From: Cinnamomum chago
Taxonomy: Eukaryota > Streptophyta > Magnoliopsida > Laurales > Lauraceae
Direction: 5' to 3'
Length of the DNA: 64,000 nucleotides
NCBI GenBank assembly: GCA_038049695.1
Contig: CP142451.1
Span: forward strand, 128,794,001 to 128,858,000
A program made the position numbers and the translations under genes. How positions within the stretch are numbered: position 1 is the stretch's first letter; each line of letters opens with the position of its first letter. The notes beneath the pieces are model-generated. The model worked only from the letters and a program-made list of their open reading frames with translations, was not told the DNA's origin and ran no database searches. Below, piece by piece: positions 745-45,490 of the stretch.

Positions 745-1915
745 TGATGAGTCCTGAAAGTGCACATTTTCTTACATATTTTGGACCATTTTAAGGGCTT
801 ATTGATATTAAAGAGCTTTATTTAATGTCAAATCATGTTTTTATGCATTTAGGGTCCATTGTAGTACATTCATGCATAATTTGCTTAAAAATCACACTTT
901 CTGCATAAATTCATTAAACTTGCCATTTTTGGAGATTTATTTTTCAAAGTCGGTTATTTTTTGTGCATCAAGTAGGGTCTCATGCATCATCCATTTAAGT
1001 TCCTTACATAGAATTATTCTTGAATCCATTTGTTTTATTTTGTGTAGGAGAAATCAAGAATGAGACCCACATTGGTGAAATTTGAGAGAGATTAAGGGTA
1101 GGATATCTTTCATGGTGGACCCACATATCTTGGTATTCCTAGAGAGTTTGAAAAGTCAACAATTGAAAGTTAGATTTGTGATTTCAAGATCAAGAAAGGA
1201 AACTTCATATTTGGTAAGATTTAATTCTTACTAAGTTTGAAAACTCAAAAATCAAGAAAAATGATATATTAAGAAAGGAAAGTGTGCTAAAAGAGTTGAC
1301 TAATCAATTAAAAAAGTTTGGAAGCAAACCAAAGATGGAAGGAGAGTCAAGAAACAATGAAAAAAATATGCCACGATTCATTTGGATGTCCACATGGGTC
1401 CCACACACCACATTGCACAACTAACATTCCATATGTGTACAAGTATTCTCGGATTTTTCAGGGGTAACAAGATTAAAATGGCCATAACTCTTAATCCAGC
1501 AGTTGGATTGGTGCAATCCATATACCGTTGGAAAGATCTCTTCGAGTAGATATCTTTAGAACCCAAGATTGTGTGAATCGGAGCTAAAACAAGGAAGATA
1601 TGACCTCTTAAAGTTGGTACTATAATTTCTACTCTTGATTGCAATTTTGTATATGAAAAGCACCCAAAAAAAAAAATCTCACCCACCTTGCTATTTCTTT
1701 GAAGATTTGTTAGCCAAGGAAGGGACTTTCCATACAAAGAAGATTGCATACTACAAACTTGGAGCAAAGAAGGAAAGAAAGAGAGCAAAAATCTATATAT
1801 TGAAGGCATAAGCATTCCTCTCCTTTCATGGGAAGATAGACCAACTCTCTTTAGAATTACTACTACACTCCATCCTCTTCCTCTCTCTTTCTCTCCATTG
1901 AAGTCTTCAATGAGA
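745..1915 (+). mobile_element. Probable Ty3-gypsy LTR fossil, left part
   Basis: The segment opens with TGATGAGTCCTGAAAGTGC, a start that resembles plant Ty3-gypsy LTRs from memory. It later carries a stretch about a site with an 'accgttggaaagatc' phrase that I associate with such LTRs. It is interrupted at 1916 by the CACTA element, and the flank continues at 12,931. It is a fossil; no coding domains were recognised. The family assignment rests on remembered similarity only. Confidence 0.35.
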
Positions 1916-1927
1916 CACTACAAGAAA

Positions 1928-2520
1928 TTGCACTTTTGCCGGCGCTAAAAAAGCGTCGGCAAAAGTCTATAAAACGCCGGTGAACACCTTTGCCGGCGAT
2001 TTTCCTTGCGCCGGTAAAAGGTCGCCAGCATTAGCTTTTGCCGGCGAAAAAAGGTTAGCGCCGGGAAAAATAATACATTAACGGCGTTTTTATTCGCCGG
2101 GAAAAGACGTATAAAACGCCGAGAAAAGGCCTTTATTTTTCAATAATAAATTAATTTAAAATCTTTTGCCGGCGTTTTTTTGCGCCGGCAAAACATTTAT
2201 ATTTTATGGATTTTTTTTTTAATTTATTGCCGGCGTTTTTTTTGCGCCGGCAAAACATTTATATTTTATGGAATTTTTTTTCAAAATTTATTGCCGGCGT
2301 TTTTTTTTGCGCCGGCAAAACATTTATATTTTATGAAATTTTTTTCAAAAATTATTGCCGGCGTTTTTTTTGCGCCGGCAAAACATTTATATTTTATGAA
2401 AATTAATTTTCCAAAATTATTTGCCGGCGTATTTTGTCGCCGGGAAAACATTTATTTTTTTTAAGTAATTATTTTGAAGGTGTTTTGCCGGCGAAAATGT
2501 TACGCCGACAATCAATATTC
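1928..2520. repeat. Left subterminal hairpin array of the CACTA element
   Basis: The motif TTGCCGGCG and its inverse CGCCGGCAA (or CGCCGGGAAA) alternate along the whole stretch. From about 2163 to 2460 a roughly 60-65-bp unit recurs about five times. Each unit has TTGCCGGCG, a T-run of 6-9, GCGCCGGCAA, then ACATTTATATTTTATG and an AT spacer, so each can fold into a short GC stem with a T-loop. Such arrays are the usual transposase-binding subterminal region of CACTA elements. Confidence 0.9.
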
Positions 2521-2864
2521 ATTTATTGTATTTATTTGATTTTTTAATTTTTTTCCTGTATATGCATCATTACAACTTCGAACCTATATCGTATGAAACT
2601 ACTATTCTAGTATTTAAGACCAAATCTCCTACACACCCAACATCTATCTATTCCAAATATTCATTCCACTTCATATTAATATTCAAATATCCTTACAATA
2701 TTAAAAGTACTTTACCATTACCATTACAAAATAAAAATCCATAGTAACATTCTACGATTTGCCAACATTCAAATGCCAATGAAAAATTACATCTTCATAT
2801 ACAATCATCTCATTGTTGCACCAATCCAACACCTGCAACATTGTTCAAAAAAACTTCATACATC

Positions 2865-3224
2865 CTATTTTAACATATGGCAATCTGTTATGTTATGCTC
2901 TTGAGGTAAGCTCCATGTCAGACCTCCAAGGTTATAGCTTGTGATAGTTAGAGTATTTTGCTTGCAATTGTCTGGACTCAGAATATTGTTGTTGTTCACA
3001 CACTTGAGCAGATTGCCATTAGAAGTGTAGCCATTGGAGGACTCCAGTTCCCCCTTTAGTGCTTTGTCATAATCTGATGGATTCATAACTGAACACATGA
3101 CATCTGCATAATGAAGTACTGGATACTTGGAACTGCCAAACATTGAAGACTCAACTACCAGTTTTTCTTTGATACTCTGAACAGCATGTGCATATTCCAA
3201 TCCAAATAGACCTACATTTCGGAA
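2865..3224 (-). pseudogene. Captured exon-like fragment, unrecognised protein
   Basis: On the minus strand an acceptor-like TAG near 3225 is followed by about 118 open codons, beginning LFGLEYAHAVQSIKEKL and including GSSKYPVLHYADVM. The composition is protein-like (mixed, not low complexity). The open frame ends in the element's interior near 2865. I do not recognise the family. It could be the 3' part of a host gene carried by the CACTA element, or a remnant of an element gene such as a TNPA-like protein. Nothing shows that it is expressed. Confidence 0.35.
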
Positions 3225-4015
3225 AGAAGAAAATGATTATAAAAGATTAAAGAATATCATACCACCCAATAGAATTACATTTTTCAGATGATTGCTAAAT
3301 TAGAATGAACAACTTTATAAGGAAGATTCTCTAACTACAGCCAGCAGCATTCAGACCCATAACTTCTTCCTATCAGCAATTCAGACTAAAAAATGTCTCA
3401 CTAAAAAAAGTAAACAATACCCAATTCAATGCAATAGCCTGATTGAACAAGCTGCAAGTCACAAGTGCCGGTTTGTCTTGGTCTCCAAACACAGCAACAG
3501 AAACAGAACCATGTCTAGTCTGTATAACATGTTCCTGATGACACTTACATGAACAGTTCAGAAGAAAGACACAAACTACAAGTAGTCATAGAGCAGATGC
3601 ATGATTCTGTCAGGCATTACTCTCATACAAAAGAATAACAAAGGCTTCTCCAAGTTCAAAAACTAAAAAATTGTTCTGTCTTCTTGATGACCACATCCAT
3701 CATTACAATTTCAAAAAGAAAACCAAAACCCATATCCATTAGCTTCATGATAATGAAAAAGTTAGAAAAACCACATGCAGACTAAAATCAAAACCCAACT
3801 GATAAAAACCCAATGCCACAGAAAAGACACAAGACCAAGGATCACATGGATATCAGGGCCTGGAGTGTGATTTGTATCTCCAGTAAAGAAGTATTGTTGG
3901 TCATCTCAATCCTATTGCACTGATGTTAGTAACATTAACTGCCATACAAGCATCTGCGTAAAATGTATGAAAGCCAAACATGAGTCATTGGGGCAATCAG
4001 GCTTGCCTACAAAAT

Positions 4016-4150
4016 TCTTATTTCTAGAGATTTCACATAATTCACCAATGCAACAAGTACTTCATAGGCAGTAGAATGAAGAGGAGTTGCCGGTGTTTTA
4101 ACCAATTCAACAAGTCTCAGAAACAGATCCCAAACCACGAAGTCCGTCAA
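4016..4150 (-). pseudogene. Coding-like antisense fragment in the CACTA element
   Basis: The minus strand is open for about 45 codons with a helical, leucine-rich composition (for example DFVVWDLFLRLVELV, then STAYEVLVALVNYV). The neighbouring upstream sequence looks coding in a different frame, so the piece may be a decayed exon. The protein family is not recognised. Confidence 0.25.
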
Positions 4151-6540
4151 CCATGCAAGCAGAAGCACACTCCTGCACTGTTTGATGACATCCCTTCACA
4201 TACATGGTCAAAAAGCACTTTGGAGACTGAATTTACACTTTAACAAAGAATTCATGAAGGTATTGAATAGGTGAAGATTTATTGCCATCTTATTTCCCTC
4301 CAAGTAATGTCCATTTCTACTACCACGTGTCTTATACTGAAAATCACAACAGCCACTGTTATGTGATTGAATATTATTTACTGATGACATCTTTGCCAGT
4401 GTGGTCAAAGAGCAAGCCACAAGCTAGGCAGTAGGCACCAAGCCCTTTTAAAGTGTAGGAAGCTTGCTGGATACACTTCCGAGGAAAAGCAATACAGATA
4501 CACACTGTATTGACTTCTGTGTTTTGGCCTTATGCAACGCCACTATTAACAAAATAAAAGCCATAAATTACTCGTGTCAGCTTAGAAAGCTAATTGAAAG
4601 TTTAAAAAATGGCCATTATACAAATTATTGAAACTTAAAATTTAAGCATTTTCAAGAAGTTTCATTACTTCAGCCAACATGTTTTATCCGATGAAAATAA
4701 AAATCAGATCAACAAGAAAATAAGGTTCAACTAATAAATCCTTCATCAATTAACATTGCAGAAATCCAAACTGCAGATACATAAATCATAATTGTAGTAA
4801 AATAATGAGAAAAGAATAAAAGAATAAAGAGAGGGACAGAGAGCTTGCAGAAATTCCAAAATGGAAAATAAAGAAATAAATATATAAACAGAGAAAGATA
4901 GAAAATGAGATATATATATATATAGAGAGAGAGAGAGAACTAAAGTGAGACATCAGTGAAGTGCATGATTCAAATGCCTTTGGTTGTTCAACATTTCCTT
5001 GGAAGGATAGAAGGGAGACCAAAACAGGGCCTCATGGAGAAAAGAGTAATCATAGTGTTAGAGATAGTAATTAATCCGCAAACTCATTCACAAGATTCAT
5101 CCATGAAGCAACACAAACAGAGGATTGCATACAACCTTAAAAAAAATGGAGATTAGGATTACAAAGCAAGTGAAAGGAACACTAGATCCAGTTGTGTCAT
5201 AAATTCAGTAACTGATAAAAATAATGTGACGAATTTCATTGAATAATACCATGATAACTACGCATCTATAGTTCTATACATGTTCTTTTACTTTTTGCTT
5301 AGGGAGGAAACAAAAAAGTAGCTATTGTAAGTTGGATCCACCCTCTCTTAATACCTGCATTGTGCTGGATCCACCCTCTCTTAATACATGCGTTGTGCTG
5401 GGTAATGGAATTCCAGGAGGAAGCTTTGGTGTTTTTCCAGAAATTGACAAGTTTGCCAAATTTGATGACACTTTGTTGTGAAACATAGTTTCCATCCAAG
5501 CTAATCCTGTTCAGAGAGAACTAAGAACATTTATAAAGAGATTTTAAAGAGATTTTGATTCTCTTACCTCTAAAACATGTATGTTTTAAATTACTGTTAT
5601 GATAACAAAGATTAACTTCTGCGGCTGATTCAGTCTCCATTTATGATAATTTTGATACTTGAAACAAACTAAAGGCCTCATGATATGATATAACCGCAAT
5701 TCTCCAACATATCAAACGACAATTCTGAGTCCATCCATCCCCTTCTATACAAAAATATATATAAATTAATGAGGTGGAAACCTCCCTTCATAGCTATATC
5801 CAATAACCCAAATGCAATTATAAAGCAAAGAAAGAGACCTGAGCATTAATATTCCAAACTCTATGTAAATCAGACAACTTATCAAGGCAGAACCATCTAT
5901 AATAATAAATAAAAAAAAGGAAGGTGTAATACAATGAAACAAAGAACCCAGTGGGAAAAATTAGCATTTAACTAGATGACATTTTGATGTAAAAGAAACT
6001 GGGTATCCTAACAACTATTACCATTGATTGGCACATGGAGTCTCTGACTTGGGTTGGTATAGATATTTCATCCTTTTTTGTTTTTCCCCATTCTACCCAA
6101 ATGTTGTACCTGGGACGGGATCTAGTTATGTAATTGGTTTTTTTTTTGGGTTGTCTTTTGCTTTTGATATGTTTGGAAGTTTGGGATTTGTAATATGAAT
6201 GACTAAGCGGTATAGTCTTGATACCTTCCGCAGGAGAGGTGGTGGAGGTCTTGGTCTCCCAAATGCCTTGGCCTTCTAGCTGTTCTTCTATCAAAATTCT
6301 TAAGTGGATTGGATTTGGTGGTGATAATGTATATTGGGAATTGGGAGAGGATTTGTAATGGAGCTTTTTGAGGGATTTTATTAACTCAATGGTCTTTACT
6401 AGATTGCATTATGTCACAGAGATGGTTTCTACCAATGGTATTATACTACCAATGGTATCATCACAAATGTAAAACAGATGGTCAGATATTTAAAAATGCT
6501 ATGGATTGCAAAAGAAAGTCAATCCCACAATAGGACTTAC

Positions 6541-6654
6541 AAAGCTGTGAAGTGACTCTATCATGCATCCCTGTTCTTCCAACCTCTTCAAAACAACTTC
6601 AACTTTGGAAGCAGCCTCATCTTTATGCTTTTGGAGCTCTTCTTCAAAATTCTC
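6541..6654 (-). pseudogene. Antisense exon with canonical splice sites in the CACTA element
   Basis: The minus strand reads TTTCAG, then 114 nt open in one frame (exactly 38 codons), then GTAAGTCC. The translation begins ENFEEELQKHKDEAASK and continues with VVLKRLEEQ, a charged heptad-like sequence that suggests a short coiled coil. An exon-sized, stop-free, length-divisible-by-three stretch bracketed by good splice signals is best explained as a real exon of a captured host gene. The parent gene is not recognised. Confidence 0.5.
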
Positions 6655-8866
6655 CTGAAAGTCCGTAGATTTAATCTAAGTACAATAACAATGATTTGGC
6701 AGCCATTAAAAATCTCACAACAATCAATAAAAAAAAAAAGTCAAAAGAGGCTCGTCCCACGAATTTCCTGAAAACATCAAATTACTCCTATATTTAATTT
6801 TTTTTATAAAAACATTGTAATTATCATCTCTATTCCCTATCTGGGTCAATATCAGTTCATATAATCTTGATTTCCATTGGGAAAGTCAAAACCATTAACT
6901 GAAAGCAAGGTATCTTCCATGAAACAAATCCATCTTAATTTCTGGAAGGATCTCACTCCTATTGGCAGCATAAGCTGGAAGATATCTGTGATTTCAGCTC
7001 CAACTTTGATAGCAGCAAGCATCATTAAAATGGTTCATAAAAGCAGAAAAAGAAGAGAAAACAACATCTACTGCAATGAAAATAGGATAACTACAAAATA
7101 GGCAGAAAACCAGATTTGAGCACTGTTCCATGATTAGAAGCTAGAATGCAAGTACAGCAATGCAAAGGCCCCAAAAAATGCAGAAATATGAGCATCTTGG
7201 GACTGAAAGCACTAGCATGATTTCAAAGCAGAAGCTGGGGCAAAAGAAGAAATGGTCAATGAAGGCTTAGAAACTACATCTTTTGCAAGAAGATTTGCAA
7301 ACTTCCATTCCATACTTCCATTCAAACTGCCTTTTAGCTTCAAGTATCCCAAGGGCCATGTGTTGATACTTGATACTCACTGCCTTTTAGATCACTGCCA
7401 GCACCAAATCAGTGTCCTAAATCTACCTAATATTCTAACTGCCAGCTTACACTGCTGGATTCATGAATGAGTGGAGGCTGGACACACCTCTTGCATTTTC
7501 TGCCAGAATATGACATCAAGACATGGCATGGATGCAACATGGACACACTATGAATATGGCAGGATTAAGATTTTACACATAATGAACGGAGTATCGGATC
7601 TGATATGTGACTCGTGTCATATATTTTTATTATACAAAAAAATAATTTCCTAGTAATTAATGAAACCCCCTTTCCTAGGAATTCAAAAGGCCTGTTTGGA
7701 TCCCTAGAATCCTAGTTACCTAGCAAATCAAATTACCAGAAGCTCAGTCACATGTGACGACTAATGAATTAATGATAGTTATAGCTGAGCGGAATTTAGT
7801 TAGATCCTCTGTAAATCTGAATACTTGGTGAGTTATGGACTTCTTCCCAGATGATCCAACCTTTTTAGAGTATTAGAGTTATGAAATAATTACTGCAATT
7901 GAATTAGAGGGAAATTTAGTTTACACATAAGGGGGATTCTAAAACAGGTAATGGTTTTTCCTTATCTTTTTCTTTAAGGTGATCCTACACAACCACAGTG
8001 GGACCCATGAGTTTCCTAACAACTACTCATTTGAGTTTCAAAATTGTTGTAAAACTTGTTACCCCATAATTAGTTATTCCCTAATTAGTTACAAGCTCCA
8101 CATCCCAATAAGGAAACCTCTAGAGTTTCGAGAACCTTGATCGACTAGAAATCTCATTGGAAGTTAACTAAATAAGTATGGCCAGTCTCTTCTATCCCTT
8201 TCAAGTCTCAACTCAGCAAAGAGGAAGCCATCATCCTTGTTACAAGAGGGAGGTGCATGGGATAAGATTCATCATCTTGAAAATCTGTATCACACTCCCA
8301 CTCAAGTTGAAGCATGGATAGAAGCATGCCAGAACTCTAGTATAGTTTGGTTTTTTGTGATTATTTGCTTCAAGATCCCCCATGAGCACTGACTGGATAT
8401 AGGATTCATAGCAAACTAACAGGGATATCCAAATGCCTGAACTCATGATTATGTGTAAACCAAGGTACTTCAACATGATATGCATAAACCCAAATGGGCC
8501 TAGAGGGAAATGCCAAACATGCCCTGAGGATGATGAAACAGAATGAGCAGGATAAGGATCCATTTCAAAATTGGCTTGAGATAACAAGTGAAGACTAAAC
8601 TGCAACAGGCTGGTAATTGAAGGGTTTTTTTTTCTGCATTTCCCTAATCAAACTCATATTAGAACATCCAAACATACACTAAATTTTATCGACCACAACA
8701 AAACAGAAAAAAAAGGTAAAATATAATATGTAATCCAGTATTGCCAACAAAGAAAAGTGGGTTGCTTAATATTGCAGTACAACTAGTTAGACTGACATCC
8801 ATAATTGAAACATGCAATCATCATATATATTATTCTGAGCATTAGAAGACAGAATTGGAATCAAAC

Positions 8867-8898
8867 CTGATAATTGCTTGTTTGAGCTTATCCAACTT
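8867..8898 (-). pseudogene. Possible small antisense exon in the CACTA element
   Basis: The minus strand reads GTGTAG, then a 32-nt stretch encoding KLDKLKQAIIR plus two bases, then GTTTGATTCC. The acceptor and donor are acceptable and the residues are coiled-coil-like, matching the style of the exon at 6541-6654. It is short, so chance cannot be excluded. Confidence 0.25.
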
Positions 8899-9382
8899 CT
8901 ACACTCTACCCAGAGCTTGCTACCCTACTGAAGGGGTAAAGATCCTGCAATTATAAACCCCATTACATCTAGTTTAGATGACCCTGCACTCAATTTTCAA
9001 CCTCACCCCCATGCATCATTACTTTGTACAGAAAGCTCCCATCAAAAATTAACTTTAGCCTCCTACATGAGAACATAACCATGTAACAGAGGAAGAAGAC
9101 AAGATAGATCCATTATCAAGACAACCAGACCAGCTACCGAGTTGTAGATATGCAAACACATGCTTCCCTAAAAGCACATATAACAGCCCAAATCAACACA
9201 TAATAAGTAGTGATGAAAACTTGCAATATAAATAAACAAAGTTAAAATAACTAAGTAGCCACTTTTGCTAGTAAACACGAGGGCATCTGCAAAACTACGA
9301 CATTCAGCTAATGATCAGTCGACAACTTCAGTAAATAAGATGAAGTGGTTGCAAACCATTTATAAATTTGTTGGCATTTGAC

Positions 9383-9443
9383 TACTACTACTACTACTAC
9401 TACTATTGATCTCTCTCTCTCTCTCTCTCCCTCTCTCTCCCTC
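9383..9443. repeat. Compound microsatellite (CTA)n(TC)n
   Basis: About eight CTA/ACT units are followed by a TC-rich run with CCC interruptions. It lies in the interior of the CACTA element, in intron-like sequence. Confidence 0.9.
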
Positions 9444-11867
9444 CATATAATGCATTATGCACTTCACTTAGCCATCAAAAAGATCCTCCATTAAGTGCCC
9501 CCACATGGTACGAGGTGAGAAAAGAATAAAAGGCACTATTCATGTGATGTGCAAAGTGGAACTTGGGGTTGGACATCCTTTTGTTTAAGGAGGCTAGTTA
9601 GAAAGCAACCAAATAAATAATAAAGAGCCCATATCTACTGCCGAAATGGATGAAAAATCCAAGTACTAGGTTATGAGGTATGCGGACGTGTTCCTATTGG
9701 TGAGACACTCATGGAAGTTTTCTCAGTAGATTAGATATAGAAAGCATCTTTGAAGGTTAGAACAGTTAAATGTAATTAAATTGAAAATGAAAGTAGCAAA
9801 GATAAATATAATTCGGGTAAAATATATAGAAGAGAGACAAGACACTTAGGATAGGAGATCGACTTGGGTTTTGCATTGGCTGTTGATTTGTTTAAGGGAT
9901 GTTGAAAGAGAACATTATCTCCATAAAGTAGTTGTAAATGTAATTATCAAGTAAAATTTTAGTACTAAATAGAAACTTCTTGTGTGCTCTGCTGCTTTTG
10001 ATGAATAGCTTACAGACGCCTCATTAGATTATAAGATTGCCATAGATTGGAATAGGAGAATTTGCCTGCATGATTGAGATTCCCTTGTAATGTAATTGGG
10101 GCAAATAGAGAACAATGAATAATTGGGGAAACAGAGAACAATGAATAAAGCCTTCTTTTCCTATAGTTGTGTATGCTGGAATCAGCTAATAAGGCCTAAT
10201 TACCAAGTAGCATATAGATTGGTTGATCCTACAGAACAGTAGATTCTTTTCGTGAACTCTGCTCATCATGTTATATAAGGATTAGCTACTCAGGCCACAA
10301 AATCCTAACAGAAAATGAAATCACTATAAAATCATGTAAGTTGAAAACAAATTGATTACAAATCCCAAATCCAACAAAAGATTATCACCAAAACAAAATC
10401 TGCTTATCAACAAACAAATCTAAAGTCAACAAGTGAAATCCTCAACTGAGAAATCAAGCCACAAATACCACACAGCATTACTTCCTTGGAAGATCAAATT
10501 CTCGAAGCTCAATGGAAGCCCGAAAATCTACATTGCATTAAGAAGTCAACTGCACAAAATCAAATCGAAAGCCAACTGATTAAAAGGAAAATGCAACAAT
10601 CCCAACCCAATGCAGAAATCAAAGAATGGAATGCACAGAGGGGAACAATAATTAGACTTGCTCTCTTCCACAGAGTTGAGTATGATAAAATGAAGAAGGA
10701 ACTAAAATACCTGTTCTAAAATAGATGTGTAGAATTACAAGGGAACATGGATAGAATTAAGAGAAACCTATAAGAGTAGAACCACCATAAGAGAAAATCA
10801 TGAGATGAAAAAGAAATAGTTAACACACACATAGAAATAGATTTCAAACAACATTATATATAAATAATTGGAGCTTTCCAAGTTCAAGACAATAACATTT
10901 TTAAAAATAAACATAATAAAAAAATAAATTTGAGGTCCCTCACAAGAACATGCACTGGTTACCAATTCTCTTCATACACTTTTTTAAAAGTATGAAAAAT
11001 ATATATATGCCTGCATCTATGAATATCATCATCAATATCCTAACTTCCTCCAATCAATCAGGAGTTAGCTTAAAAAAAAAAAAATTGGGTCTACATTGGG
11101 TCTACAGTGAATGTAAACTATTAAAACAAAGTGAAGAGAAAGGGAAACATCTACATAAATCAAATTCCATGTTTCATTTCACACTTTTTCACAAACTTTG
11201 GAAGTAAATTAACTCAAAAAGCTATCAGAATCCCTGGGAAAAGGCAAACGTGCATCACGAGATTTCAACATCAATAAAGCTAAAGTCAACATCATCCAAA
11301 ACTCACAAATTCTACCAAAAAGCACCGGCCTTTTCAGCTCGGACAGCCATTAAACACCAGAATTGAGAAAAGAAGCCATGAAAATGCTTCAACGAAGGCT
11401 CCAGAAAACAAAAACCAACCCTAATCCAGATAAAGATGCTCTGTATCATATTCAAAGCTTCCAAACAGCTCTCACAAAGGAAAAAAAAAAACCATCATTA
11501 ATCTCAAACACCAAAACCTAATGAGAAAAACACACACAAACGGTCATGAATCGATTAATTCGAACAAAGATCAGTGAACTGAACAAACTAACATCGGATT
11601 CTTCAAAATAAATCGAATCATTTCATTTGGACAAAGATCAGTGAACTGAACTCCAAACCAGCAAAGATAACATCAGATTCTTCCAATCAAGCTTCAAAAC
11701 CAAATCTTTAGCTAATTAGAAGAGAGAAAAACGGAGATGAGAAATCAAAACGCATCTTGAGTAAAATCTCACCTCAAGAAATCTACAAAAGGCTTGGAAA
11801 CCAGATCGAGAAAAAAAGACTGGAAATTGCAAGATCAGAGGAAGAAGAAGCTGAATTCGAAGCTTAC

Positions 11868-11990
11868 CTCGAACAATCTTCTTCTGCAGAAGAAGAAGAA
11901 GAAGAAGAAGGAAGGGAGGAATCGCTTTCGCTTCGAAGAATCTGGAGATGGAATTGTGTGTGTGTGTGTGTGTTTTTTTTTAGCTGCTTT
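11868..11990 (-). pseudogene. Possible captured 5' UTR exon
   Basis: On the minus strand a (CTT)n tract, common in plant 5' leaders, is followed by GCAGAAGAAGATTGTTCGAG and then the donor GTAAGC at 11,867-11,862. It lies upstream, in antisense order, of the other exon-like pieces in this element. This fits a captured gene whose 5' end sits near the right end of the transposon. The exon start is not defined. Confidence 0.3.
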
Positions 11991-12104
11991 TCAAGGAAAT
12001 GTGATTTTATGGAGGGAAGGACGGACAAACGTCTGGCGAGTAAAAAGCAGAGATGGGCGATAGATGTTTGTGGCTGGACGAGACAGAGATGGGCGATAGA
12101 CGAG

Positions 12105-12356
12105 GCGAGATGGGCCAGGGACCGAGAGGGAGGGAGATACAGAGAGATGGGGTGATGGGTGCTGGAAGAGGCGAGATGGGCCAGGGACCGAGAAGGAGGA
12201 AGATGCAGAGAGATGGGGAGATGGGCGCTGGAAGAGGCGAGATTGGCCAGGGACCGAAGGGGAGGGAGAGGCAGAGAGATGAGGGAGATGGAATAGGCGA
12301 GATGGGACAGGGACCGAGAGGGAGGGAGATGCAGAGAGATGAGGGAAATGGGCGCT
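12105..12356. repeat. Purine-rich minisatellite, about four 60-66-bp units
   Basis: Units start at 12,105, 12,171, 12,237 and 12,297, each with GCGAGATGGGCCAGGGACCG or a close variant, then a GGAGGGAGATGCAGAGAGATG block. Open frames across it in several frames are products of the repeat. It lies just inside the right subterminal region of the CACTA element. Confidence 0.9.
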
Positions 12357-12507
12357 GCGAGATTGGCTGGACGAGGCGAGATGCAGAGAGAGGAGGGAGA
12401 TGCAGAACGGGTTTGAAATGAGGGAGGGAGATGCAGAACGGCGCAATATTTGCTTTTTTGTTTTTTGTTTTCTTTGGGTATAAGCAGAGGGATTGTTTTA
12501 TGATAAC

Positions 12508-12926
12508 AATCCCGGCGCATTATTCGCGCCGGGAAAACTAATTACAAAATCCCTCACCCAAATAAACGCGCGATGCCCAAAAGAAGGCGCGAATGGTGGA
12601 TATTTGCCGGCGAAGTGGGCAGAACGCCGGAAAAAATAAACCTTTGCCCGCGAAAAAACAAATGCGCCGGTAAAAAACTATACCTATGACTGAAAACGCA
12701 ATTACCTTTGCCGGCGAAAAAAATTAAAACGCCGGGAAAAAGGACCTTTGCCGGCGAAAAAAATAAATCGCCGGAAAAAAGCAGACTTTTGCCGGCGATA
12801 ATATGACGCCGGAAAAAATCATTTTTTTCCCGGCGAAAAAGCTGTTTTCGCCGGTAAAAGTTATATTTTTCCTGGCGTTTAATGCTTGCGCCGGGAAAAA
12901 ACGCCGGTAATAATGCAAATTGTTGT
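12508..12926. repeat. Right subterminal GCCGGCG repeat array
   Basis: The motif TTTGCCGGCG and its inverse CGCCGG(G/T)AAA recur about every 30-50 bp up to the right terminus, mirroring the left array. Here the long T-loop unit of the left end is missing, so the two ends differ in organisation. Confidence 0.88.
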
Positions 12927-12930
12927 AGTG

Positions 12931-14340
12931 AGATTTGGTTGGAAATCACACTACACCCTTGAATTTTTCATGTAGAAGAGGCTTCTCATCCTAGTATGTA
13001 ATTGTCATTGTTTATTTATTTTTATATATTATGTAAGACTTTGCATATTAGTAAAATTGTTTCTTACTCTTTAAATTTTTCTTTATTGTTCTTGGGTGAT
13101 TGGTGCATATTTTATGTTTCTTTTCTTGTTGGCATTTGGACTGACGACCCAAAGGCCCTAAGAGCATAATTCAAATTATAACCCCGCTTAAAAAAGAATT
13201 TTGAAAGAGGAGAATACACTTACACACATTTAAATTTATGGTCTTCCACACATTTAACTTTCTTGTTTTCACTACACATTTAAATTCTTGAACTTTTGTT
13301 TATTGTCTTTATTTTTATGATCAATTAAATTTAATTTATATCTATTTTTGCATAGTTTATGATTGGAACTAGTTAGCATTGCTTGCATATGCATATGGTG
13401 GAATCTCTAACATGTTTAAGTGGCTGAGGAATCTAGTTCAGAAAAAATATATGATTTGAATGATGAAATTCGGCCAAACATAGTGCTAAATCTCAGATCC
13501 AGCATATAAACAACACTTTCTACACAATTTCAGTAAAACTACAGAAACAATTTTCGGCAAAAAGTTCGAAGTGGGTAGACCAGTCAAATCATAGTATTTT
13601 TATGTGAAATTTGGGAAAATTGAAGTTCAGCATGTTGTCTATCACGTCCCAAAATTTCAGATAAAAAAGATTTCAGCAGGTTGGTGAACTAATGGCTTGA
13701 ACATGACATGTTAGGCTACCTGTGTGCATAATTTCTACACAATTTCAATTTTTTTAGGTCATGTTTATGCATTCATATTTCATTCATTATAATTCATTTT
13801 TCACTTCCTTTTTTTTTATTTGATTCATGAATCATTATATTTTAAATTCCAGTCATTAAACTCAGTTTTAGGTTGCATTAGATTTGGAGAAATCATGCAT
13901 AAAAACAACCCTGCATACTAGTTTTCTAGACTTCGAATTTTCAGCATCTCATGACATACATTGCATTACTAACTTTTTAACTTAGGTTTCTTTTGTTTCT
14001 AATTTAGTTTCTTATTTTTATTTTTGGCACTTTTTATTCTTGATGTTATAACTTGTGTGTTCTTTTGTAGCAATTTTAGTTTTTAGTTTCTGATTTTTAG
14101 ATTTAGGAAGTTTTCTTTTCATTGGATTGCAATTAATTTAGTTTTTGGAAAGTAGGAATGATAGTTGTAACTTTTTTAGTTTATTATTATTATTTTCTAG
14201 TTTATTAGGCTAGATTTAGATTTTTAATTTAGGACAGGTATAAGTTGAGGAGGAATCTTAATTTATATTGCTCAATGTGGATCGATTTGGTCTCACCAAT
14301 TTATTACTACATCGCGGCTCTACACTTGGAGCTCACGAGC
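12931..14340 (+). mobile_element. Probable Ty3-gypsy fossil, right part (LTR end and leader-like)
   Basis: This is the continuation of the sequence interrupted by the CACTA element. It holds long AT-rich non-coding DNA of a type I associate with gypsy LTR ends and untranslated leaders, ending near a CATCGCGGCTCTACACTTGG stretch. No second LTR or coding domain was identified, so the element's true limits and lineage are unknown. Confidence 0.3.
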
Positions 14341-15202: not shown

Positions 15203-18200
15203 CTAACATACGCCGTTGGTTTTCCTCTGCAAGACGAATTTCTTCCACGCGGTCGTAATCTCCCTCTGGGTCTCTAACGCCGTTTTCTTAACGACAACGG
15301 CTCCGTTACAGTCCGCCTTCTTCAGCTCGCACTTGACGGAGAAATTGGCCGTCAGTTTAGACGGCAGGGCGTCGAGCTCGTGCAGGACCTTCTGGATGTC
15401 GAGCACGAGGCGCTCGGCAAGCGTGCGGCTGAAGTCCTCTCGGATGACGACACGTAGCACGGTCACGTGCTGGGCGTCTGGGGGCATGGTGTAGGCCGGC
15501 ACGATCCAACCGAAACGGCGCAGGTAGTCCGATACCTCGAACTCGTCGTGTCGGGTGTTGTCCTTAAGCGAGAACGCCACTAACGGGACGCCGTCATCTT
15601 TCGAGACGATGTTAAAACGGCCCATCTCCTCCAATCCTTCCTTGAGCACCATTGCGTTTTCACGGCAGTTCTCCATGACGTTGCGGTACCCCTGTCAAGT
15701 GTCAAAACCATTAGTTTAGTTTCTCAATGCCTTTGTTCTAATAATTGGGGGCAAAGCTATGAAAAAATTATGAAACAGTCTAGCTCATGTTCATGGGGGT
15801 CACTTAAATGTAAATTTATCAATGAGAGGAAGCTAATGATAAAAGCGATCCAAAAAAGAATCCCATCAGATTCTCCTAGCTCTTGAATTAACGGCTTTGA
15901 ATTTTAATGGCATTTTAACTGTAGATTCTTTTAAAAAGATTAAATCCAATAGTCAACGTAAAATTGAGCCGAAGTATCAAATCATTGGTTGAAAGAATAC
16001 CAAATGAGGCTCACTAATAAAAGGTTGGCCTAAGCGGACCCTATAGTCTTTGTGTTTTTTTACCAGTTTGGGTTGGTTCAAGTTGGTTATGGGTCATGGT
16101 CCATTAGTTTTGTATTAAAAAAATATGTGACTTAGTCGCATTGCTAGAGGAGCTGCTATGAGAGATACCTCTTACATCTTTCGTATTTAAATGCTATTAA
16201 ATATGAGTCGAAAGATGGCACTGGGATTCATTAAGTCATAGACTTGGTCCGGACAGGCATGGGTCAGGACTCAGGAACATAATTTCAAAGCTTGGTAAGA
16301 CTTGGAAAAATATGGTTGGGCATTTTACTATGCTTGGTAGAAAAACCAATGATCGATCAGAAATTAAGTCCCTCAACTATTTTTTTTGTCAAATGAGGTT
16401 GACTCAAGCAAAATTCAATATTAGAGATTCAATGGACTGAGACAAAACACAATAAAATTATTAAAAATTATTTTTGATGCTATATATTTTCAAAGTAAGT
16501 TTTGGCTTTTTTGACCCAGCAAGGAGTTTCCAATTGACCAAGTAACTTTTTTTTATCAGCACAATTTCTTCACACTAGCCCGGTTTTCTTGAATTATCCA
16601 TCAATTGTTGTTTTCAAGTAAAAATATCAATAGTGGTTGTGGATTGCAGCTATGCTAAGAACAGCTAATTAGGAGAGAACATCCGTACTGAAAGAAAAAT
16701 TGAAGGACCAAGACAATGAGATTTTGCTTGATTATGAAAGCTTTCATGGTGCTACAGAAGTAATGGCAGTCGGTGCAGGTGTGGTTCTAATTTATCATCT
16801 AGGGGCCCTCGTGCTAATTACTTACTAATAATTGGGGGTAATTTGTACATCAAAAACAAGCAGAAGAAGAAGAAGCAGAAGAAGTGTCACCTCGAATCCG
16901 AGACGGATGAGTTGATAATACTGAGCAATGACTTGACTGGAACCTGCATTTCATTTCAAATAAAATGAAACTGTCAACAACAGCAAAATAAAGCCAAAAC
17001 ATCTTAACAAATTTACATTGAAGAGTTGTTGGGTTCAAGTTCAAGTGATCTTTTGGGTCAGGGATTTTTTTTTTTAATTACATCAGACTTTCTTTAAGCC
17101 CTTTGGCAGGGTGGAACTAGGTTACTAGGGTAGGAGGGTCATGCCTCCCCTGCAAATTTTGGGGAACCCCAATATTTTATATAAGATTTTGTGGTCTTTT
17201 TTCATAATGGCACCTCCCCCAGGGAATTTTTTTTTTTTTTTTTTAACATAGTGGCCCCAAGGCAAATTTCTTGGTTCCCACAAAGGACTAAAGGGTAGTG
17301 TAAGAAACCCTGAATAATGACATTGAATTTCATGGCAACTACATAAATCCCATCTGTTTGTGAAGGCAAGTAAGAAAGAATTTGAATACACACCTTTGGA
17401 GAAGTTGAGAGTGAAGGTGGGTTGATCAGCACCCAGATAGTTAATATGGAAGATGAGCTCCTCAGGCAAGTCCTCCTTGCTCCTCCATATCACCCACCCA
17501 ATCCCTGCATACACCAGCCCATACTTGTGCCCACTCACATTAATGCTCTTCACCAACGGTAGCCGGAAATCCCACTCCAACTCCGGATACAAGAACGGAG
17601 CAATAAACCCACCACTTGCAGCATCCACATGGATGGCTGTATCCCACCCAGTCTCCTTGTTCTTCACCTCCAACAGATCATTCAAGAGCTTGACATCCTC
17701 AAACTCTCCATTGAGGGTCGACCCCAGAATGGCTGCGACGCAGATGGTGTTCTCATCCACCATTTCCACTGCTTTTGCTGGGTCCATGACATAGTACCCT
17801 TCACTGAGCTTGACTTCCTTGAGTTCTACTTCGAAGTACCTGGCGAATTTCTCCCAGCAGACTTGGACGTTGGCGCCAGTGACGATGTTGGGTTTGTCGA
17901 TGGGCTTTCCCTCTGCCCTTCTCTTGTTTTGCCAGCGCCTCTTGAATGCCAATCCAGCTAACATGATCGCTTCAGAGGAGCCTACAGTTCCAACTCCAAT
18001 TGCTGTCTCGGATTCTCCTAATGGAGCATTGAAGAGATGGGCGATCATGTTCACGCATCGGTTCTGCACAACCAAACAAATGCAATGTTAGGATTTTCAT
18101 TTCCGCAAACTTAATAATTGATTGAGTGAAAAAAAAAAATTTAACCCTTAATTCTATTTCAAATCACGCTACACTACAAATAAACAGCTCATTTATGCAT

Positions 18201-40200: not shown

Positions 40201-43200
40201 CCAGTTGATGGTATTTGGGCAAAAGTGGCAAGTTCCCACCTACCCTAGTTTTCAATTTCCAGATTCTATATGATGGTTTCATTGGATGTGCCCATCACTG
40301 CATATGTATTGCGCCATGCATATCTTGCAATACTGACTTCAAAGCTACATTAGTTGAAACCTTTATTTGTCTTTACTGTGCCAAACCATTACCAGCCCCA
40401 GTTGATGGTATTTGGGCAAAAGCGGCAAGCCCCCACCTACCTTGGTTTTCAATTTCCACATCCCCTCCTTGCTCATTGATACTGAACCGTATATAGACAC
40501 TAATAAGAGTGATACTTGCCTTTGGATTGAAGATGTATTTCTCATGTCATCTACTCACATTTTGATGAGATGATGAAGAGCACTTCAATCACACAGTGAA
40601 TGCCACTCAAAATTTGACTGATTTTCAGGTTACTTATAATTCACGGGGTGCTTTTTGAACAGAGACTGGACTGTGGTAATAAGCGGGCCCCTCGGTGCAT
40701 TTTTTTCTCTTGTTTAACTACCAGTAATTGACACAATATGATCATATTTTTCTTTTGGGTCAAAATATTTAAACTTGGTTGCAACTTTTAGACTACATCC
40801 AAACACAGATTAGTTTGATCATACCATTCAAGAATATATATTTAGATCATTTATCTACTTTAATTTCTTGTCTCTTTATTCTCTTTCACATTTCCTTAGA
40901 TGACTAGAAAGCATGATTCTGCACTTTTATAGGGAATGGCTACTTTAACGCTTTCTGCATCTGTTCCCGCATTCAAACCCCCCACCTGTGTGGGGTCTGT
41001 TTGCCCATCAGCAAGTCCAGCTCAGTATGGTGTATTCTTTTGTGGCCTCTATTTGATTGCTCTGGGGACGGGTGGCATCAAACCTTGTGTGTCATCCTTT
41101 GGAGCGGATCAGTTTGATGATACTGATCCAACGGAGAGGGTGAAAAAGGGATCATTCTTCAATTGGTTTTATTTCTCTATCAACATTGGCGCACTCATAT
41201 CAAGCAGCTTCCTCGTCTATATCCAAGATAATTATGGGTGGGGCTTAGGGTTTGGCATTCCTACGTTATTTATGGGCCTGGCAATAGGAAGTTTTTTCAC
41301 GGGCACAGCACTTTATAGATTTCAGAAACCTGGTGGTAGCCCTATTACAAGAATGTGCCAGGTTGTGGTTGCATCACTTCGCAAGTGGAGCGTTGATATC
41401 CCTCATGACAGTTCTCTCCTATATGAACTACCGGACAAAACCTCTGCAATTGAAGGGAGTCGAAAACTGGAGCACAGTGATGAACTCAAGTAAATTTTCT
41501 TCCTCTCTCCTTTGAACTTTTACTTAAGGCATGTTTTTCATGTCTCCTCCACTTGGGGTAGGAAGGATGCTTTTGCAGCAAATCCATGGTGAATGCATTT
41601 TCAGTAGCAGCTGAATTTTGTTGTGATATTGATTTGGGATGACATGGTTAGAAGGCCTGTGGCTTGCCTTTGTGGTTTTATTTTAATGTGCCTTCCCAAA
41701 TAAACATAGCAAGACCCACACCATGCTCTCCTCAAATTGCCATACCATTTGCAAGTAATGGTGAATGTAACTGGACCTTTTAGTAAAAATTCTTGTAACC
41801 TATTTATTGCTTTGAATATATATACAGACCATAAAACAATGATTATATTATATCCTTTGAGATTTTACGAAAGTAACTCTTAGTTTCATATCCACGAAAC
41901 GATACTGCATTGTCTCAGAATGGCCATTTTGCAGCTAGAGGCTTTTAGGGAATAAATCAAAACATAGAATCTTAGTCAAAATCCATACAATAACCGCGGT
42001 GGAAGTAAAGGAAGAGAATTGAAGCACAATTTGCGGGAAAATCTACTGCCTGCCATCTAGTATGCAGTATGCTCACACCCAAGCGTATAATCATTCCACA
42101 ATTCCAACATAGGGTTTTGTTTAAGAAGTACAGATTTTTTTTATTCATTTCTGAAAAAGAAAAAGAATCATTAATTTCATTACTACAGGAAATCTGCCCA
42201 CAAGCTCTCTCGAATTCATCTGGAGTGAACATAGGTAGCAGAATTGAAATTTTTATCTTCTGGCTGCCATTCTTATCTTCCTTTCTTGGTATGCAGATTC
42301 TTAACTTCAAATGTTTTGATGTCTTAGCTCCAAATGCGCAACAACCCTAATGGGCTTTTATCCTTTTCTCTCCTTTTTTTCTATGGTGTTGAGGGCAAGG
42401 ATGAAATTAGCCGCTACGATAAATGTATTTTATCGGCGGTCGCAGCTATGGGCCGCCACAAACCTGTAGCGGCCGATACGAACCACTACATTTATGTATC
42501 GGCCGCTACACTGCTGCACTGGAAAAAAAAAAAAAACCTTCATTCGTTGGCTGGGTGGAAGTAGTACACCAATGGAAAAAAATTAAATAAAAGAAAGAGA
42601 GGAAGTCCAAACAGAAAGAAAGAAAGAAAAAAAAAACAGAAAAAGAAAAAGAAAAAAAAAAACAGAAAAAAGAAAAGGGCATACTTGGAGCAGCTGATCC
42701 ACCACGGTCATCCGGCGGCGGCAGCTCCACCACCACCGTCCGGCGACAGCAGCACCTTCGTCTAGCTGCAACAACGTTATTCTCTCTTCGTTTCTTTTTT
42801 TTTTCCTCCTCCCTTCCTTTATTTCTCTCTGCCTTTCTCAATGCCTTGCCAACCCTTGCAGCACAATGTGGAATAGGGTTTGGAAAGCCCTCGATCTTTT
42901 ATTTGAAGAATGAAATAGGGTTTGGAAAGGCCCCTTTGGTTTTTCTTGGTCTATTACATGCTTCTATGGGCCTACCTAGGGCGAAACTCGTTCTTACGTG
43001 TTTCTATGGGCCTACCTACTAATGAACACACTCAATATTAACGAGATTAGTAAAATATTTTGCATTACTAATCCTATTCATTAGTTACTCTAATAAAAAA
43101 AAAAGGGTCTTAATTAAATTTCATTGCAGTTGAAAGTAGGACTTAATTAAATTTCACACTAATTAAAAACAGGCCTTAGTTAAATTTCACTCTAATTGAA

Positions 43201-45490
43201 AATAGGCCTTAATTAAGTTTCGCTCTAACTGAAATTAGGCCTTAATTAAATTTCAGTCTAATTGAAAATAGACCTGGCCAAATAACTCTCTAATTGAAAA
43301 TTGGTATAGCCAAATTTGACTCTAATAGATATGGGCGTTGACCAGATCCCACTCTACTAAATATGGGCCTGACCAAGTCTTATCTAATAGGAAATAGGGC
43401 CCTGGCCCAATTTTACTATAACACGAAATGGGCCATAGCCAATTTTCACTCTAATAGTAAAAATAACCTTTACCAAAAAATAACCTTTACCAAATATTTT
43501 GTGCAATTTTGCTAAAATTGCTTATTTGTGCAGTGTTTCATTATAAGTATTTTGTCACTTGTGAATATATGTAGATATCTAGATCAATATTGTCAGCGGT
43601 ATAGGACCTCATACAATGAGGGGACTGCTACGCCCCCTTATCTTACTTACTTTTGGAAAAAAAAAGAACCCCACATTTTCTATCATTTCCAATATTCTTG
43701 ATTCTCTGCAATATTTTTAAAATTTTTCAACAATCTTTTCAAAACGCACCGCTACGCCACTACGTAGCGCCCGCTTCGTAGCGTTTTGGTAGTGGGCGTC
43801 GAAAGCTATTTTCATCCTTGGTTGAGGGTTAATGTTGAATTAGAAAATAATGAATTGTGAGATAAATCTTTTGAACAAAGACTTTTCTCTCCCTTTCCTA
43901 GTGCGCATGCGCATGCATTTTATAGAACCCTTGGACGATGAGCCTCAATTGCCTTGGTCTTTTGTTTTAAAGAGGATTTGTTGTAAAGGAACTAAAAAAG
44001 ATAAGAGGATTTGTAGGGGCGGTTGTGATCCAAATGACCATAATGCCCATAGAAACTAGAGATGTCCCATGACACCAATAGTTTTATGAAGATCCTATTC
44101 ATACATGTGTGTGGGTAGGCTTGTATAGTCTGCCGTACCTATTTGCCTACGCCTTTCTTCGAATGATAATATATACCTCAACCTTGTTCAAACTATGTTG
44201 TAGATTGTTGTATTCTTCTGTATCACATCATGTTAAACCTCAAAATGAACTGGAGTCATTACACAATCTTGGCCTGAAGTAAGGTCTTTCCGCACAGAAT
44301 AAGCATTCCATACAGATGGAATCCGTGTTTTAAAGACACCATAATCGACTGTGTGAACCTGCATGTAGGAAATTGAACAAAACCATCCTTGTTGACGATT
44401 CCAGTCATACTATGATTAACTTCTAGTGGTTGGTTTCTAGTGGTTGGTTTAAATCAATCATCCACCTGCAAGCCAGTTATTGGACCAACTAGGATTTATA
44501 CTGTGAGATTTTTTGCAATTTGTCCTTTTGGCTGTTACTAACCGGACCATCAGCAATGATCACCACAAGATAAACCCAATATGTTTAGAGTGCTTCCTTG
44601 AATAACTATTGATTGTCTTATGGTGCATGTTGTGTATTTTCCCTATTAAATGCCATGTCTACTGCAGGTGTCTTGATAAAGCTGCCACAGTGACTGATCT
44701 GGATGTCAAGACGGGTGATTTTTCTAATCCATGGAGGCTGTGCACCATCACACAGGTGGAAGAACTGAAGATACTGGTCCGCATGTTCCCCATCTGGGCC
44801 ACTGTAATAGTGTTCTCTGCTGTGTATGCACAGATGTCTACCATGTTTTTAGTGCAAGGGATGGTTTTAGACACTTCTCTTGGCTCGTTCACTATTCCAC
44901 CTGCTTCTTTGTCAACCTTTGATGTGGTGAGCGTTATTGTATTGGTTCCAATGTACGACGCAATTCTCATCCCAATAGCAAGGAAATTCACTGGGAAGCC
45001 TAGAGGCTTCACGGTGCTGCAGAGAATGGGTATTGGGCTGTTCGTATCGATTCTATCTATGGTAGCAGCTGCAGTGGTAGAGATCAGACGATTGGACATT
45101 GCAGTAGAGCTGGATCTAACCCACACAAAGGCTGCAGTCCCGCTGAGCATTTTGTGGCAGATACCACAGTATTTTCTGGTGGGTGCTGCCGAAGTTTTCA
45201 CCTTCATTGGGCAGCTTGAGTTTTTCTATGACCAGTCCCCTGATGCCATGCGAAGCCTGTGCAGCGCTTTGGCTTTCCTTGCAACTGCACTTGGGAATTA
45301 CTTGAGTTCGTTCATTCTAACAGTAGTGACTTACGTGACAACCAGGGGAGGGAAGACTGGATGGATACCCGATAATTTAAATGAGGGGCATCTCGATTAC
45401 TTCTTTTGGCTATTGGCTGGTCTCAGCTTAGTAAACCTGCTGGTATATGTTTACTGTGCTTCAAGGTACAAGTACAAGAAGGCTTCCTGA
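37212..45490 (+). CDS. NPF8: NPF8/PTR2-like proton-coupled peptide transporter, copy 1, 5 exons
   Basis: This family imports di- and tripeptides with protons across the plasma or vacuolar membrane. The exons are 37,212-37,265, 39,620-39,725, 39,813-40,030, 40,933-41,489 and 44,668-45,490. They join in frame to 585 codons plus TGA, and all introns are GT-AG. The start [15 protein letters not shown] is a usual NPF8 N-terminus. The proton-coupling motif ExxER is ECCER at 56-60. [19 protein letters not shown] begins at about 171, and [10 protein letters not shown] lies at about 203-212. The length fits the 12-helix family. Against copy 2 it shows L373, V374, M377, L404, V428, V458, F515, A517 and Y581, several differing from residues I recall as conserved. 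A 1.94-kb insertion lies about 68 bp upstream of the ATG. Confidence 0.95.
40115..40459 (+). repeat. Tandem repeat of about 197 bp in intron 3 (copy 1)
   Basis: The block from CATGCATATCTTGCAGTAC to about 40,262 recurs from about 40,312, with the phrases ACCAGCCCCAGTTGATGG and TATTTGGGCAAAAG in both units. The same arrangement occurs in copy 2 at 57,882-58,226, so it predates the segmental duplication. Confidence 0.88.
42396..43820. mobile_element. hAT-like DNA transposon in intron 4 (copy 1)
   Basis: The ends are CAAGGATGAAATTAGC and, on the minus strand, CAAGGATGAAAATAGC. They are flanked by the 8-bp direct repeat GTTGAGGG (42,388-42,395 and 43,821-43,828). A perfect 15-bp inverted repeat TGTAGCGGCCGATAC (42,465-42,479 and 42,496-42,510) lies near the left end. 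No transposase is evident. The same element sits at the same site in copy 2, so it inserted before the duplication. Confidence 0.85.
43105..43465. repeat. Degenerate about 33-bp tandem array in the intronic hAT element
   Basis: Roughly eleven units follow the pattern GGCCTTAATTAAATTTCAC plus TCTAATTGAAAATA. They become less alike toward the right, where GGCCTTAATTAA is replaced by GGCCTGACCAA-like text. The copy 2 array is at 60,905-61,260. Confidence 0.85.

Follow-up and report, generated by a model that had tools for sequence, protein, structure and literature searches.

A Pack-CACTA element of Cinnamomum chago with cargo from several host and family sources

The stretch of the Cinnamomum chago genome analyzed here (the window: 64,000 nucleotides, C1:128794001-128858000, in a genome of 1.06 Gb and 14 contigs) holds an 11,015-bp transposon of the CACTA (En/Spm) superfamily. 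It is a new Pack-CACTA member, of a kind that is already known, and its cargo comes from several sources. We hold with high confidence that it is a recently amplified, non-autonomous Pack-CACTA, with ends and a terminal exon that derive from a family encoding a tnp2-type transposase, and with a mosaic interior drawn from several host genes and other members of the family. The coordinates of all features are collected in Table 1.

The ends of the element are unambiguous. The motif CACTACAA reads inward at both of them, as in other elements of the CACTA (En/Spm) superfamily; the left terminus begins at 1916 (CACTACAAGAAATTGC) and the right terminus finishes at 12930. Three-base target-site duplications, AGA around the window element and ATT around a relative on C10, lie directly outside the termini. 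The window has eighteen GCCGGC sites, of which seventeen fall inside the element, thirteen in its first 600 bp and four in its last 450 bp, so that subterminal repeats confined to the end regions are present together with tandem units. The original prediction, made from the sequence of the window, had described these boundaries, the AGA duplication, subterminal arrays, and the lack of a transposase frame, and each point is confirmed: no transposase family was found among the 53 open reading frames (ORFs) of at least 50 amino acids in 3330-11860 (27 sense, 26 antisense). The element has no transposase frame of its own and carries host coding DNA, namely an NDR-family fragment with a known donor gene, which is the combination that characterizes a Pack-CACTA.

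The transposase is found in relatives with the same ends. The left 29 bases of the element match 398 places in the genome at up to three mismatches, the first of which are listed, and the reversed control matches none. A relative at C10:10150215, about 17.8 kb long and carrying the terminal exon, shares window positions 1916-3291 and 12071-12930 at about 90% identity. One of its frames, of 737 amino acids, contains Transpos_assoc (E 4.7e-21), Transposase_21 (PF02992, E 1.8e-95), and part of DUF4218 (E 2e-27); a further frame on the same strand contains DUF4216 (E 1.7e-24). A family member with these ends thus encodes a tnp2-type transposase and, because it does so on the strand corresponding to the minus strand of the window, that strand is fixed as the coding direction of the family. 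The transposase region recurs at 98% in a second member (L068), where a stop interrupts the frame. The genome contains 1,658 PF02992 candidates, of which 150 were scored, and comparison by eye of these 150 loci with the first listed ends gave no certain result. Two short frames in another locus (L042) that had been read as Transposase_24 have no Pfam match.

The copies of the element itself are close to identical. Four of them, the window's included, match at 98-100% over each of the three stretches searched and are spread over three contigs; one (L039) is 99.55% identical across 9,868 aligned bases. Seven copies match the whole of 6400-8000. Separately, matches to the element end at C2:70586772, 70626799, 70666843, and 70706887 are spaced by almost exactly 40 kb, which suggests a tandem array of units of about 40 kb, each with a CACTA end.

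The terminal exon is common to the whole family. A search with the translated stretch 2871-3224 scored all 74 candidates and returned 75 matches. Ten places are hit twice, by separate pieces, so the matches represent about 65 separate places; 48 of the 75 have 95-100% identity along almost the full length. A DNA search with the exon (40 of 66 candidates scored) returned identities of at least 98% throughout. Thirty loci, counting the window's, sort into nine groups by the sequence upstream of the exon, and one terminal exon has therefore been joined to different interiors. The coding-like 3′ piece that the original prediction placed at 2865-3224 is real and ends at the stop codon at 2865-2867; its start lies at 3211, next to an acceptor at 3212, and the prediction was too long on that side. 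Four weaker loci match the exon at 78-81%, of which C11:5898314 (L066) was read. There, an open frame (L066:3770-4087) runs from an NDR fragment directly into part of the terminal exon, as if the two were joined in frame.

Judging from the DNA match, the probable donor of this exon is a locus at 17.0 Mb on C12 (L067), since the match extends beyond the coding part through the acceptor and the end of the intron. On that strand, 1.2 kb upstream, a frame (L067:3637-3876) resembles Diphthamide_syn in Pfam (E 0.0024, below the curated cut-off), and by eye the exon and this frame each look like plant DPH2-type protein. The exon itself has no match in Pfam, NCBIfam, or PDB. The rest of the 4 kb read at L067 shows no lengthy match to the window element or to the C10 relative and gave no hit for the left-end motif. 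If L067 is the donor, the host exon was acquired before the family diversified, and the transposase-bearing members carry it too.

A different account would make the spliced pieces a TNPA-like accessory gene belonging to the transposon itself, into whose introns host fragments had been inserted. En/Spm elements produce a long multi-exon transcript of similar layout, and the C10 relative carries both the terminal exon and the 79-bp block at 8843-8921, which is about 0.9 kb from the terminal region there and about 5.5 kb from it in the window. The 32-nt exon that the original prediction had counted among the pieces of one captured gene lies in this block. Against a TNPA-like gene stand the 98% match of the terminal exon to a host-like gene, with intron and acceptor included, and the NDR and other host families aboard, which are not transposon genes. 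In addition, the frame of the 8843-8921 block is not in frame with the terminal exon in the C10 relative. An in-frame join of the two occurs only in the window copy, where a base is missing, and because it fails in the C10 relative we do not claim block and exon as one gene. The reading of L067 as probable donor led us to lower this account, and we consider it improbable.

The interior of the element was originally interpreted as a single, nearly complete host gene captured with its introns. Part of this stands: host exons with adjoining noncoding DNA are aboard, the recognizable exons all run in one orientation, and their canonical borders are confirmed, with AG/GT at 6541-6654 and 8867-8898 on the minus strand and a GTAAGC donor after 11868. 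What fails is one parent gene contributing all pieces in order, as the sources lie on C2, C11, and at two places on C12. For the NDR fragment (Pfam Ndr, E 6.8e-4), positions 3456-3753 match a multi-exon gene on C2 at 98.3% over 299 bp, with 30 bp more at 93%. The first-exon-like block at 11188-11900 matches, beyond the four full copies, only C12:13534588 among the 44 matches listed (40 of 117 candidates scored). Between these pieces, the seams at 5700/5701 and 7298/7309 divide blocks whose matching loci form different sets; the search with the block right of the second seam covered positions up to 8000. PDB searches with 3373-3585 and 4007-4195 gave no matches, and the best Pfam match of exon 6541-6654 (E 0.027) is below the cut-off. 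Because of the separate donors, the sharp seams, and a terminal exon that belongs to the whole family, we reject the capture of a single gene as extremely improbable. At the C11 locus that is colinear with 3746-4960, about 940 bp are inserted (L064:1060-2000), and a repeat of some 10 bp of the flanking match brackets the insert.

The open terminal exon raises the question of whether the cargo is maintained by selection and yields a functional chimeric protein. We aligned the exon from 27 loci with that of the window, 28 copies in all, two of 29 loci being skipped as partial. It is free of stops in 27 of the 28, and over 2860-3219 no copy has a gap relative to the window; the sole length difference is one base close to the start of the exon, absent from the window copy and present in all 27 others. 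The 41 substitutions comprise 14 synonymous, 26 amino-acid-changing, and one stop, against a neutral expectation of 11.5, 27.6, and 1.9 (P=0.39), and purifying selection on the exon is not seen across the 28 copies. As far as this substitution test can tell, the open state of the exon reflects the youth of the copies, and recency alone would be expected to leave frames open. The ten places with split matches, of the sort that a frameshift or an interruption would produce, and the missing base in the window copy lowered a functional protein slightly more in our estimate, and we judge it very unlikely. There is no sign that the cargo is retained for protein function.

We can outline how a recently amplified Pack-CACTA mosaic of this kind may have arisen. 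The terminal exon would be captured host DNA that entered before the family diversified. Fusion of neighboring elements with loss of their inner ends probably added cargo, as the seams and published work on Pack-CACTA elements indicate. A transposase made elsewhere would presumably move the window element through its intact ends. If the element is transcribed from its right end, the sense exons could be spliced to yield chimeric RNAs with the terminal exon at their end. Several points weigh against this interpretation as a whole. The diphthamide-synthesis-like nature of the probable L067 donor comes from a weak Pfam match and our own reading. Among the donors, only NDR is confirmed as a multi-exon gene; the C11 locus may be a donor or else an older captured copy, given its additional 940 bp, and the locus at 13.5 Mb on C12 is a candidate donor. 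The selection test covers one exon. Transcription and splicing of the cargo are predicted from splice signals and unproven, and mobility is presumptive, excision or new insertion not having been observed.

Table 1. Features of the Pack-CACTA element and its flanks (window coordinates)
Feature	Position	Strand	Basis or remark
Target-site duplication AGA, left	1913-1915		Directly outside left end
Whole non-autonomous CACTA element	1916-12930	-	Termini, target-site duplication, transposase-bearing relative with same ends
Left terminus and subterminal GCCGGC array	1916-2515		65-bp tandem units at 2158-2460
Family-wide terminal exon, probably mostly from a diphthamide-synthesis-like gene	2865-3211	-	Acceptor AG 3212-3213; stop codon 2865-2867
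Captured block: exon together with some 120 bp of the intron before it	2889-3332	-	98.0% to C12:17019592-17020036 (L067)
Junction	3328-3332		L055, L057, and L060 have about 700 bp extra here; aligned pieces overlap by 5 bp
NDR-family fragment (first Ndr-domain exon and adjoining noncoding DNA)	3429-3753	-	Donor C2:104752756-104755264
Captured block with open frame 4007-4195	3746-4960	-	Colinear with C11:34993903-34996081 at 95-98%, except for about 940 bp extra at C11
Left side of sharp seam	4900-5699	-	C7:15496912, C5:10088927, and C10:45011369 match whole stretch
Right side of seam 5700/5701	5701-6445	-	Copies L005-L007 begin matching here
Block Q, holds exon 6541-6654	6440-7298	-	Matched almost throughout by seven other loci (95-98%) and in part by eight
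114-nt spliceable exon, coiled-coil-like by eye	6541-6654	-	AG/GT borders
Block P	7309-8000	-	12 other loci match 7388-8000 (92-99%); most also match 7309-7379, across a gap
Block common to window element and L041	7982-8845	-	97.2%
79-bp block with 32-nt exon 8867-8898	8843-8921	-	98.7% in transposase-bearing relative, near terminal exon
Overlapping blocks 9129-10097, 9752-10759, 10287-11180	9129-11180	-	Each with a different set of loci
First-exon/intron-like block with GTAAGC donor at 11868	11188-11900	-	C12:13534588-13535300, 98% over 713 bp
Right terminal region common to window element and transposase-bearing relative	12071-12930		About 90%
Target-site duplication AGA, right	12931-12933		Directly outside right end

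Other variants of the family carry other host genes, and the recognizable fragments seen share a strand. Cargo in L041 includes GSHPx (Pfam E 1.8e-11); in L043, ABC_membrane (5.6e-10), zf-UBP (1.2e-8), and ABC_trans_N (5.7e-4); in L040, DEAD_2 (1.4e-5), Mito_carr (3.3e-4), and a weak Myb (0.0021); and in L068-L070, eIF3_p135 (1.2e-14, two ORFs) and Ndr (4.9e-10). An ORF of L043 (5766-5996) that had been read as a PDR transporter has no Pfam match at 0.01. For a strand test, we took stop-to-stop ORFs of at least 50 amino acids from the interiors of the window element, L040, L041, and L043 (94 sense, 84 antisense) and from L068-L070 (67 of 80 sense and 77 of 85 antisense, the omitted 13 and 8 all lying in the L068 transposase region). 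The 161 sense ORFs match eight host families at E≤0.001 (GSHPx, ABC_membrane, zf-UBP, DEAD_2, Mito_carr, ABC_trans_N, Ndr, and eIF3_p135), and the 161 antisense ORFs match no Pfam family at that threshold. All eight are therefore on the transposase-sense strand (sign test, P=0.008). The terminal exon, which is also sense, was excluded from this count because it is shared by descent.

This sense-strand bias is a lead, not proof. The test is partly post hoc, because the pattern was first noticed in sense ORFs of L041 and L043 and then retested there, and the fresh loci L068-L070 contribute only one previously unseen family (eIF3_p135), which weakens the claim. So do two antisense matches at E 0.001-0.01, RVT_3 (0.0011, a retroelement domain) and Defensin_5 (0.0039); in the same range the sense strand has ten weak families (five AAA-type, ABC_tran, Myb, zf-CCCH, DsbG_N, and Hex_IIIa). 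Three of the eight sense families (Mito_carr, ABC_trans_N, and the window's Ndr) are below the Pfam cut-off, the NDR origin being secured by DNA identity. The sample consists of seven related elements, with right ends unreached for L043 and L068-L070. We suggest, tentatively and as a doubtful possibility, that the family keeps host fragments almost only in the transposase-sense direction, upstream of the shared terminal exon, and so acts as an orientation-filtered, exon-collecting cassette from which antisense captures are lost. Such captures would either interfere with splicing of the element transcript or lay host genes and the element open to silencing.

Elements of comparable organization have been described in other plants. 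Tgm-Express1, a 5.7-kb soybean CACTA located in a gene intron, contains five host-gene fragments spliced as cassette exons (PMC1947982). Like the window element, it combines CACTA ends with pieces of exons and introns from several unrelated host genes; the window element differs in its length of 11 kb, its four matching copies, and a family of dozens that shares the terminal exon with transposase-bearing members (PMC1947982). The Tpn1 family of the Japanese morning glory has 339 copies with a mean length of 7,081 bp and 3-bp target-site duplications with one exception (PMC5105172). Both families keep their CACTA ends, have interiors replaced by captured genic DNA, and include few transposase-bearing members; the accessible part of the Tpn1 account makes no mention of a shared terminal exon or of cargo strand, features noted here (PMC5105172). 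Pack-CACTA elements, within the Pack-TYPE transposons, are likewise non-autonomous CACTA elements with coding DNA from several loci and grow by fusion of neighboring elements (PMC8903248). On wheat chromosome 3B, 140 CACTA-mediated capture events have been counted, with 17 captured genes showing possible exon shuffling, and some of that cargo is reported as expressed and under selection (PMC4290129), whereas the one exon tested here looks neutral. Chenopodium CACTA elements (PMC8978399) and maize Helitrons (PMC3288121) provide further comparison. In the literature searched, which left most subscription journals outside its scope, we found no statement that CACTA elements hold captured fragments in a biased orientation, and the uniform orientation of all recognizable fragments seen in this family may be a new detail.

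Two further observations concern the neighbors of the element in the window. A Pyridoxal_deC gene (15203-18087, minus strand; E 1e-69 for the larger frame), by eye like glutamate decarboxylase, lies about 2.3 kb past the right end of the element. Two near-identical POT/PTR2-family transporter genes stand in tandem at 40933-45490 and 58714-63219, about 17.8 kb apart; the Pfam PTR2 scan covered the first.

The window element and its relatives show, within one genome, how a CACTA family assembles large mosaics of several genes whose donors remain traceable. An orientation filter, if true, would bear on whether transcription and splicing of the element shape what transposons keep.

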